Assembly: GCA_002118135.1 (NCBI GenBank)
Contig: BDIU01000043.1
Span: forward strand, 149,485 to 213,484
Origin: Trebouxia sp. TZW2008
Lineage: Eukaryota > Chlorophyta > Trebouxiophyceae > Trebouxiales > Trebouxiaceae
DNA length: 64,000 nt
Direction: 5' to 3'
The notes beneath the pieces were generated by a model. The model ran no database searches and had not been told where the DNA came from. It was given only the letters and a program-made list of their open reading frames with translations. The stretch's first letter is position 1, and each line of letters begins with the position of its first letter. The position numbers were made by a program, and so were the translations under genes. Below are positions 838-62,200 of this stretch, piece after piece.

Positions 838-1215
838 CACTATGCTATTGCCAATGGCACACACATGTGTTGAGTATACAGCCTTTGATCATCATGCATT
901 CATTCATGGCTCAGAAGCTAAGCCATGCACTGAGTTCTACACTATGCTACTGCAGATGGACACTCGCATGTTGAGTATTCAGCCATTTATGATCATGTCT
1001 TTGATTACAGCTCAGAAGCTCAAGTCATGCACTGAAGTCTGCACTGTGCTGTTGCAGATGGGCATATCCTCAGATTTCCAAGTGTACAGGCATTTGCAAA
1101 GAGTGATGCACAGCTGCAATCCTAACATCATGCACTGAGTCAACCCTGAACTGCGCTCCTGCCGATGGGCCGTGTTTGTACCTGGACACACGACCATTCA
1201 TGGACCTGTTCACAG
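838..1215 (+). repeat. Echoes of ADH exon 1252 acceptor edge
   Basis: Four decayed copies of the acceptor plus the first codons of the following ADH exon start near 845, 950, 1052 and 1155. Each resembles TGCAGATGGGCACA followed by a version of the TCTGAGTACACAGTCATTCATG stretch. They contain shifted frames and stops and lie upstream of the intact exon. Confidence 0.75.
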
Positions 1216-1251
1216 CTTGAAAGCACTGAAATGTCTGCTTCTTTGCTGCAG

Positions 1252-59200: not shown

Positions 59201-62200
59201 GACATTGAAGCTGTCTGTCAATGGCTGCTGCTGGTGAGAGAGTTGTTGACAGTATTGCTATCATGTTCACACATTTCTGCACGCATTTTCGCACAAATTG
59301 TAAGCACAAATGCAACAGTGTCATTCATCAACACAAACACGTAGAGGGTGTACATGCACAACTTCTACAATTATATGACATCCATGAGGCAGTCCGCCCA
59401 TTTTGCACCCAGTCCCTACAGCTGATGCAGGTATGTACTGACCTGGGAGCAGCAGCACGATGTTCTCGAGGCATCCTGGCGTCCTCCTGCAGGTCCCTGT
59501 AGCCCCTGGGGGCGGGGGTTGCGGGTCTGGGGGCATGCCTGGGTGCCTGGTGGTTAGCCTCACGCATGTCTGGCCTGCTTGGCCTGTCATCATGGTACAA
59601 GCCTTGCCTACTGAAGCTGGCAGACGGGTACAGGCCATCCCTGTCTGGCCTTGCTGCTGGGTGCATGTCCGCCCTATCATGGCGGGCGTCAAAATACCTG
59701 CATCATAAAATGACAGCACTGAAAGGCTTTGCAGACAAGAATTAAAATCGCCCTGGGGTCATGCTATAAGCCCTGCACGCTGAAGCTGGCAGATGGACAG
59801 AGGCCATCCCTATCATGGCGAGCATCAAAGTGCATGTAAGTCGAAACTCCAAAATGAGGAAGCCTTGAGGCTGTGAGGATGTCAGCGCTGTTGTGATGAG
59901 CATCCAACCATCTGCAGGACGGCATGACAAATCGAGGAAGCCTTGCAGCCGGATGCCCTATCATGGTGACAATAAAAATACCTGCAACACCAGATGGAAG
60001 ACTCAGGAAGCTAGGCCCTGCCGTGGCAAACATCAGTACCTGCAAAGCAACATGCTGGATTCAGAAAGCTTTGCCCTGTCATGGCAAGCATTCAGATACC
60101 TGCAGAACAAATGGCAGGACTTAATGAGCTTTGAGCAAAAAATTTCACATGCAACAATCTACAAGCTGGAGTGAAGCATCCAGGGTCGAAAGTATGTTTG
60201 TCCGAAGTATGTTGCCGCGCAGCACAAAACAGTCCTACAGCAGAGTTGCAAAGCAGCAGACACAACAGAGTTGTGCCATGCTTAGTCATGCTCAGATGTG
60301 AGACTTGGCATTGTAGGGCTGTGGTTGTCTCTGCATGTTGAAGAGGTGCTGCACATGTGTAGGACCATCACAGCAACATACATACATAATGTCATACAAA
60401 ATGCAAGCAGTGTGCAATCCTCTCTTGATGCAAGGACGCTCAAAGTCAAGACCCCAAAGAAGAAATTGGAGAGCAATCTCTGCATTCTGACTGCAATGAT
60501 CAGTCTGGGTATGCACAACTTGACTTCAAGATACAAGGACTGTTGAAGAACATTGCAACCGCTATCAAGAGAAGCAACTGTACCTGGCATCAGGCTGCTG
60601 AAGCCCATCTTTGTAGGGATAGTGACGTAGGGGCTCCTGCTGCCCAGGTGCACCCCAGCCTTGCTCATATGCATAAGGGTCACGCTCAAGCTCAGCAGGC
60701 CTGCCAGCATACTCCCTGTAGTGCTCCTGATCATGGGCATAGCTGGGCTCAGGGTAAGCTGCAGCCCTGCCTGGCGCTGCACCATAGCCAGGATCAGCGT
60801 ACTCTGACTCCCGATACACAGGCACGTTGTATCCACCATGCCTGGGTGCAGGCTCATGATACTCCTGCTGCCTGTATCTGTGGTCCATTGACATTGGATG
60901 CGAGTCATATGGGTGGCGATCACACTGGGTGTCCTCCCATGCTGCCTGAGGGGCAGTTGCGTGCAGTGGCGCCCTGCCCTGAGAGGGCCGAATCAGCGGC
61001 ATCTCAATTGCCTTGGCCTGAGACTTGCTCAACTCAGGCCAGTGCTCAAAGAACGGCTGATTGTGCTGGTGGCTGGGCATGCGTGGCGGGGGTGCAGGCT
61101 GCATGGGGTGACGGTCTGACTCATATGTCACATGCCTGGCAGGTGGGGGTGATCGAGGCCTCTGGGTGATGGTGCGCCTCAAAGGGGAGCGAGACCGCCG
61201 TGCAGGAGAGTAAGCTAGCCTGCCTGCTCTGGACCGCCTGCAACATCAAAAACTTTCGGTTTGTAAACCTTTTTTGGCTGTTGACTGAGTATATAATGAT
61301 TGCTTCAGCCTTGTTTTAAGGTAGCATGGCGGCGGCGCAATAAAACTTGTGACTGACTGCTTGAGATCGCAACTGCTTGGGGCTTGAAGCTGCATGCCGG
61401 CATTGGCTGTCTTGACTGCCAGTGTCTTTGGACGTAACTTTTTTTTAAGTGGTCCACAAATGCAGCAGAGCTACATGAGCATCAAAATTTCAACACTCAC
61501 GACATTCCAGATGAGTGCTCAAATGCAAGCTTTGGGGACCCCAACACAGCAGCGCTTCTTGCTGGAGAGCAGCAACAGCATGTGTTTGAAAATGTTGAGA
61601 TCTCAACAGCAAACAGCAATCAGTAGGTCATATGTAACACAGCTAGGGCAATCATGCTACTCACCTGTCAGCCTCAGAGAACTTTGGCACTACCACCTCT
61701 CTGCTGCGCGAGTCTGGGAGCCTGGCAGCTCGATGAGATCTTGAACGCTCAGCTGAGCGCTCACGATGCCGAGATGTGGCTCTGTGCTTTGGGCTCTGAG
61801 GTCGTGCAGCACTTCTGCCGCGGTCAGCAGGCTCTTGCTGGCCGGACGGCCTGTCCCCGCCTGAGGCTTTGCTCTTCTGCCTATCTGACTCTGAGCGGCG
61901 GGAAGGTGACCCACGACGGGAGGACTCACGGTGCCGAGAGGGCTCATCGTGGCGGGAGGACTCATCACGGCGGGTAGACTCACGGTGGCGGGAGCTATCA
62001 CGCTTGTCGTCCTGACCTTCTGTAGTCTTACCAGCATTGCTGCTGTTCCACTGATGCCAGGAGATCTTGGTATGCTCCCTAGCAGAGGCAGCCTCTTTGC
62101 TGCTGGGCCTGCTGTCTGCATCCTCAGTCTGGGGAGCAAGCTGGGACCTGTCAAGGCAGAGGATGGTCTGAGAGTGTTATGAGATTGCGCGTACCTACAG

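Follow-up and report, generated by a model that had tools for sequence, protein, structure and literature searches.

Genes and exon-edge copies in the window

The DNA analysed here, hereafter the window, is a stretch of 64,000 nucleotides from Trebouxia sp. TZW2008 (contig BDIU01000043.1 of assembly GCA_002118135.1, positions 149,485 to 213,484). The ADH, AspRS and MDH genes in it are anchored by homology, a SAM-domain gene and a Ras/Rab gene are marked by Pfam domain matches (the SAM domain at about 48252-48377), and a candidate kleisin gene is suggested by a weak Rad21/Rec8 match near 4536-4595 that lies below the cut-off. Pfam searches of the raw reading frames, which covered part of the strands and stretches, recovered only a few domains because the exons are short, and neither Rfam nor tRNA scans of the window gave a match. 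Several introns contain partial copies of the edges of the adjoining exons, which we term echoes. The genes with echoes and the echoes themselves are as follows (SW, Smith-Waterman score of the exon edge against the intron on either side):

822..1064, plus strand: tandem pair (period 102) similar to the acceptor edge of ADH exon 1252
1252..3777, plus strand: class III ADH gene, from PDB matches; the mapped exons are 1252-1395, 2307-2688 and a third that runs from 3572 through the stop codon (3775-3777), exons before these being unmapped
1758..2274, plus strand: three echoes upstream of ADH exon 2307, copies of its acceptor edge, from self-comparison, sequence and the junction-spanning test
2716..2963, plus strand: two echoes downstream of ADH exon 2307-2688 that copy its donor edge, with in-frame stops in the first
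11526..12239, minus strand: five downstream echoes of the 3' part and donor of a kleisin exon whose last base is 12241
19290..26210, plus strand: gene for AspRS (cytosolic aspartate-tRNA ligase), from PDB sequence matches and splice sites; nine exons, N-terminal exon(s) not mapped
19290-19376, 20279-20419, 21875-22096, 22559-22764, 23675-23820, plus strand: first five of the nine AspRS exons
24467-24585, 25050-25157, 25518-25644, 26023-26210 (stop included), plus strand: last four AspRS exons
20098..20338, plus strand: two upstream echoes of the acceptor edge of AspRS exon 20279, part of the real copy included; spacing 80 and 158; SW 97 upstream, 18 downstream
21217..21872, plus strand: five upstream echoes of the acceptor edge of AspRS exon 21875; SW 141 upstream, 21 downstream
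22375..22447, plus strand: one upstream echo of the acceptor edge of AspRS exon 22559; SW 71 upstream, 19 downstream
22882-22953 and 23027-23108, plus strand: two downstream echoes of the donor edge of AspRS exon 22559-22764; SW 97 downstream, 19 upstream
23505..23646, plus strand: upstream echo of the acceptor edge of AspRS exon 23675; SW 123 upstream, 24 downstream
42245..43384, minus strand: echo array of the SAM-domain gene, with acceptor-like copies whose first exon bases are 42622, 42747 and 42977

When the nine AspRS exons are joined without the echoes, the translation is free of internal stops and is gapless at the exon joints against seven algal AspRS proteins, except for one extra residue at one joint in two of the seven. 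The second donor echo of exon 22559-22764 still encodes a weak AspRS-like peptide. The joined protein is 94% identical to that of Trebouxia sp. C0005 and 90% to that of C0009, as against 77% to a protein labelled jgi/Astpho2, which we take to be Asterochloris, and 74% to that of Coccomyxa sp. Obi. The assembly, of 68.5 Mb in 527 contigs with 50.4% GC by base counts, fits Trebouxia in size and composition: passages of two genome reports give 69.1 Mb and 49.68% GC for strain A48 (PMC12712428) and 63-74 Mb for six other Trebouxia assemblies (PMC11523091), and these passages make no mention of exon-edge copies.

The upstream copies of AspRS exon 21875 lie at 656, 547, 438 and 292 nt by self-comparison and at 146 nt by the repeat period. 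The kleisin echo donors are at 12094, 11955, 11815 and 11679, with a fifth copy at about 11539 (pair 11529/12230). An earlier note on this DNA had counted five copies in each of these two arrays, one upstream and two downstream copies at AspRS exon 22559, and three upstream and two downstream copies at ADH exon 2307-2688. All of these were recovered, the junction-spanning test described below giving by itself three upstream and one downstream at the ADH exon. The tandem pair at 822..1064 is only weakly linked to ADH exon 1252 (SW 35 on the upstream side, the 0.1% threshold being 31) and is missed by that test. The multiple copies proposed for the SAM-domain gene are borne out as an array of acceptor-like copies. 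MDH had been described as lacking echoes, and none of its four anchored exons carries a junction-spanning copy.

Orientation of the echoes across the assembly

We examined 299,664 bp (about 300 kb) in total, comprising the window and 236 kb elsewhere in the same assembly. Exons outside the window came from Pfam searches of the genome itself with chaperonins, class I synthetases, kinesins and HSP70, families picked irrespective of repeats. The chaperonin loci were taken best hits first, while the stretches for HSP70, synthetases and kinesins were retrieved once their hit tables were known, and as some of those tables already showed repeated parts of the profile this choice may favour echoes. 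From five tables 52 of 63, 36 of 54, 23 of 28, 55 of 146 and 0 of 22 hits were used, 166 in all. Five of these were dropped since their cores span at least two stops, one of them (C47 166104-166331) resembling an upstream copy of the 5' part of an exon, and eight were set aside for profile overlap as possible echo copies. The resulting set has 169 protein-anchored exons, 153 of them outside the window. Their splice sites were then adjusted by means of a weight matrix (consensus CAG|GTAAGC for donors and TGCAG|G for acceptors), and 12 acceptors and 27 donors with no site scoring at least 4 were skipped. The site calls rest on homology and this small matrix; three donor or acceptor calls that were inspected look wrong, and others may be.

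A copy was accepted as junction-spanning if it extends at least 10 nt to either side of the splice junction. Among 157 acceptors such copies lie upstream in 23 cases and downstream in one, and among 142 donors they lie downstream in 11 and upstream in one; no antisense copy was found at any of the 299 sites. The acceptor-edge copies are thus far from equally frequent on the two sides, and the oriented copies reported for the window are a real feature of many other genes of the assembly as well, with 23 of 24 acceptor and 11 of 12 donor copies following the rule. Both apparent exceptions were read by eye: the donor case at C157 is a GT inside a continuing exon, and hence a false donor, and the acceptor case at C182 is probably a miscalled acceptor. 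Without these two the sign test stands at 34 of 34 (p = 6e-11).

A more sensitive Smith-Waterman test with shuffled edges as the null, applied to 157 acceptors and 141 donors, gives at the 0.1% threshold 34 acceptor copies upstream and 23 donor copies downstream, against three acceptor copies downstream and four donor copies upstream. Antisense hits number one for acceptors upstream, none for acceptors downstream, two for donors downstream and none for donors upstream. At a laxer 1% threshold the counts are 37 upstream and 8 downstream for acceptors, 27 downstream and 6 upstream for donors, and 2 to 6 antisense. About one tested exon edge in five therefore has a decayed copy in the adjoining intron. 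The claim that the rule has no exception holds for 34 of the 36 junction-spanning calls, the other two looking miscalled, but at the lower stringency there are seven contrary hits. Four of the seven were inspected, and no clear exception was found among these four: two are not junction-spanning, one (23821) concerns a short exon with a 5' echo long enough to overlap the donor-edge query, and one is the copy at C193. The last, the strongest contrary hit, was considered as a whole-exon exception and rejected, as it is an upstream acceptor echo at a spacing of 144 whose donor is probably miscalled.

This C193 echo, near 451344-451592, copies a class I synthetase exon at 82% over 114 nt. It is in frame with the exon, with no stop between them, and use of its acceptor would add 48 codons.

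Direct local pairs, their spacing and the length of introns

Self-comparison of the window at E <= 1e-3 gives 78 direct and five inverted pairs, of which 77 direct and one inverted lie within 2 kb, an excess of local direct copies beyond chance. The main window arrays are also shown by Tandem Repeats Finder. The sole inverted pair within 2 kb (33668-33778 / 35114-35227) is 73% identical and about 1.5 kb apart. Over the whole 299,664 bp, at E <= 1e-4, with simple repeats removed and the window cut in eight pieces, there are 203 direct event pairs at spacings of 40-1000 nt against three inverted pairs under 1 kb, while at 1 kb or more within a stretch there are one direct and three inverted pairs. 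The direct-only character is not absolute: unfiltered for simple sequence, at E <= 1e-3, 13 inverted pairs accompany the 109 direct events of the 27 gene stretches.

The spacing of the pairs is mostly 100-220 bp, with a median of 165 and quartiles of 129 and 212. In simulations the detector finds a fraction of 0.91 or more above 80 bp, half at 40-80 bp and none below 40; since it is nearly flat above 80 bp, the drop in pair count above 240 is real. The part of a pair that can be aligned often falls short of the spacing. Of 82 spacers, 48 still show residual homology along the tandem diagonal (p <= 0.05 for one or both sides), where about 10% would be expected. For acceptor-type pairs this homology lies on the intron side in 11 of 23 and on the exon side in two of 23, which matches the prediction for a decayed tandem unit; for donor-type pairs it is on the exon side in nine of 23 and on the intron side in seven of 23, less clean than a simple model predicts. 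The pairs thus have the properties of tandem duplication in general, being local, direct (203 against 3) and on one diagonal (48 of 82 spacers). The copies are strongly diverged and often align over less than their spacing, which obscures the unit boundaries and any microhomology at them.

Events number 7.4 per 10 kb in the gene-chosen stretches, 8.0 in the window and 2.7 in five random stretches. The densest stretch, C79:18001-26000 with a kinesin gene, has 25 events in 8 kb, whereas the kinesin stretch C248 has none. This unevenness, both between genes and between gene-chosen and random stretches, is beyond what a uniform mutation rate would give. In the 27 gene stretches 47 of 127 introns contain at least 30 bases of detectable copy, and such copies make up 18.8% of intron bases, a share for which the earlier wording, introns "filled" with copies, is too strong. 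Introns with copies have a median length of 849 nt, as against 338 nt for those without. This agrees with the proposed growth of introns, but longer introns are also a larger target.

Probable duplication across splice sites and the presumed choice between duplicate sites

We consider it very probable that these patterns arose by short tandem duplication, placed nearly blindly and filtered by splice-site use. Under this proposal short tandem duplications would hit the gene regions of Trebouxia more or less at random. A unit spanning an acceptor would create two acceptors, of which only the right-hand one, adjoining the complete exon, would yield an intact protein; use of the left one would add to the message a partial exon, a piece of intron and a second exon start. 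With a unit spanning a donor, only the left-hand donor would keep the protein intact. Selection would retain those alleles that use the site beside the complete exon, so that acceptor-edge copies would come to lie upstream and donor-edge copies downstream. The spare copy would become intron and decay neutrally, its decoy splice site persisting for long, and each event would lengthen the intron by about one unit. The orientation rule requires no special mechanism. The cause suggested earlier, short tandem duplications across splice sites with survivors that keep one complete exon, is supported together with the orientation that results from it.

The manner in which the copies decay bears on what becomes of the spare sites. 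In the 34 accepted pairs identity is 85.5% on the exon side (2118 of 2477) and 80.3% on the intron side (2979 of 3709), corresponding to JC distances of 0.161 and 0.228. The exon side is the more alike in 20 of the 27 pairs with at least 15 bases on each side, as expected if it is mainly the echo that changes there. Of 52 echo copies, 38 retain the AG or GT dinucleotide, close to the expectation from 85.5% per base (0.855 squared, or 73%), and 32 still score 5 or more; among the 34 nearest echoes the dinucleotide is retained in 22. The echoes thus appear to decay about neutrally, with decoy sites neither purged nor kept, and the idea that many such decoys have been seeded is well founded. It follows that splicing must discriminate by context. 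The kleisin array is a case in point: its four echo donors (CAT|GTAAGT) score 8.4, as against 5.6 for the real donor (ATT|GTAAGT). The nearest echo is spaced by other than a multiple of three in 18 of 23 acceptor and seven of 11 donor cases. To judge from the arrangement of copies and sites, splicing would choose the shorter exon and the longer intron, a choice that would fit exon definition and would be the reverse of the nearest-site choice of intron definition.

Age of the duplications

Pairs of at least 50 nt, binned by 5% of identity from 100% down to 75%, number 1, 7, 25, 43 and 59, followed by 32 at 70-75%, where detection fades. Only eight of 135 pairs lie below a JC distance of 0.107, where a constant (uniform) rate predicts 35%. 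Under a constant birth rate the density of ages can only fall with age, whatever the loss, and hence either the past rate was higher or young copies are missing from the assembly. The description of the mechanism as "active" is consequently not supported, unless the assembly has collapsed the young copies, and most of the events may well come from an earlier wave. This raises the possibility, which we advance only tentatively, that an episodic, genome-wide wave of tandem duplication with nucleosome-sized units of about 165 bp lengthened a large share of the introns, and that splicing settles on the shorter exon with the longer intron even where the competing duplicate site is intact and sometimes the stronger one.

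A steady rate of duplication, with the young class lost to collapse in the assembly, would be compatible with near-blind duplication and filtering, and short-read assemblies can indeed merge near-identical copies. However, the assembly still contains a pair of 52 nt at 100% and another of 331 nt at 94%, so that any collapse was incomplete, and the deficit reaches as far as 10% divergence. We regard this variant as rather unlikely.

Blind placement and exon-edge preference

The 109 events of the 27 gene stretches comprise 59 with exon in one copy only, 49 that are purely intronic and one with exon in both. These were compared with a simulation in which units of full period were placed blindly, filtered for viability, left to decay and searched for with the same detector. 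It used shuffled introns, one event per gene, an exon rate 0.3 of neutral and an assumed per-lineage distance of 0.03-0.25. It yields an edge-spanning share of 45%, against 59 of 108 (55%) observed (P = 0.03). A first null with units of the aligned length had given 7.0 edge events expected against 18 seen; it was replaced, the full-period simulation explaining most of that excess. Edge preference is therefore small or absent, though some may exist, and a special tie to exon edges is hardly needed.

It is conceivable that introns go on receiving copies from an active mechanism directed at exon edges, for instance one tied to splicing, or to transcription, at splice sites, and both the slight edge excess and the greater density of gene-chosen over random stretches are in its favor. 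Against it, nearly half of the events are purely intronic, the excess over blind placement is small and low-divergence pairs are scarce, and we judge it improbable.

Relationship to known duplications and intron gains

The kind of mutation proposed is known, but its density here is unusual. Tandem duplication by break repair, with CST-Pol alpha fill-in followed by NHEJ, has been described (PMC8355091), and those duplications resemble the Trebouxia echoes in being direct, adjacent and independent of sequence. They are described as the commonest short human insertions and measure under 100 bp, whereas the Trebouxia spacing is about 165 bp (PMC8355091). Moreover, the copies in Trebouxia are both dense and old, and it is their effect on introns that makes them visible. 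Plant studies of paired nicks and patch-mediated repair have reportedly found related break-repair duplications. Fill-in and end-joining of staggered or paired-nick breaks is a likely source of the Trebouxia duplications, and perhaps nucleosome spacing sets the size of the unit.

Tandem duplication has also been implicated in intron gain, in the potato RdRp gene (PMC4974935) and in Drosophila (PMC2891723). In these cases the duplication involves splice sites, as in Trebouxia, and the potato gene also has an 83 bp duplication within an intron (PMC4974935). Relative to these gains, the Trebouxia events lengthen existing introns, in many genes rather than one, and are without a demonstrated new intron. 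The duplicated exon sequence in the introns might suggest that the introns themselves are new, formed by Rogers-type tandem duplication of an exonic AGGT segment. However, the 34 accepted junction-spanning echoes do not have the form of an intron between two exonic AGGT copies: each extends 10 nt or more past the splice site into the intron, so that the splice site and intron predate the duplication. This origin is thus very improbable. As to tandem duplication of a whole exon with both its splice sites, the sole candidate among the 109 events is the acceptor-type echo at C193.

Introners (PMC9860276) likewise combine genome-scale intron change with green-algal hosts, and the presence of copies with splice sites in many introns might suggest that the echoes are introner-like or other mobile elements. 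However, introners have a common sequence across genes (PMC9860276), whereas the Trebouxia units copy the adjoining exon and differ between loci, with one far against 77 near direct pairs in the window and hence no sequence common to many introns there. Furthermore, a 1.2 kb query from the kleisin array found no place in the genome other than its own, in a search that skips very common words. Such elements are an exceedingly improbable source. An artefact of assembly is no more credible: short tandem repeats are hard for short-read assembly, but artefacts would be identical, whereas the copies mostly differ by 10-30%, some have stops, and 25 of the 34 nearest echoes are spaced by other than a multiple of three.

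The open-licence literature, queried with broad search terms, yielded no paper recognised as describing a genome-wide pattern of exon-edge copies. The genome paper on a related alga, Chlorella variabilis NC64A (Blanc et al. 2010), may remark on introns that hold partial repeats of neighbouring exons; if it does, part of the novelty is gone. As far as the literature search shows, the novelty lies in how dense the copies are, in their size class and in viewing them all together as paired choices of splice site. Here one way in which introns lengthen can be traced through its single events, both source and copy being still identifiable. Any duplicate that survives would be a natural competition between two sites with an inferable winner, so that rules of splice choice could be read from sequence together with RNA-seq. 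If the episodic wave is true, the genome would be a natural experiment with very many paired splice-site choices, reporting on how a green alga uses exon definition. Gene finders can also be misled by decoy pieces of exon that have good splice sites; some echoes were already matched by the profile searches of the genome, which gives them a bearing on gene annotation.

Other repeats in the window

Five further repeats, at 49552-49781, 54198-54278, 56431-56553, 57951-58014 and 61917-61994, lie in or near long minus-strand ORFs. Their periods of 42, 27, 24, 27 and 18 are all multiples of three, those of the other arrays being mixed, and they perhaps represent duplication filtered by reading frame in exons. 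The only arrays with a 100% match in the Tandem Repeats Finder list are GGAAG repeated 12.4 times (41276-41337) and GCACA repeated 7.6 times (27114-27151).
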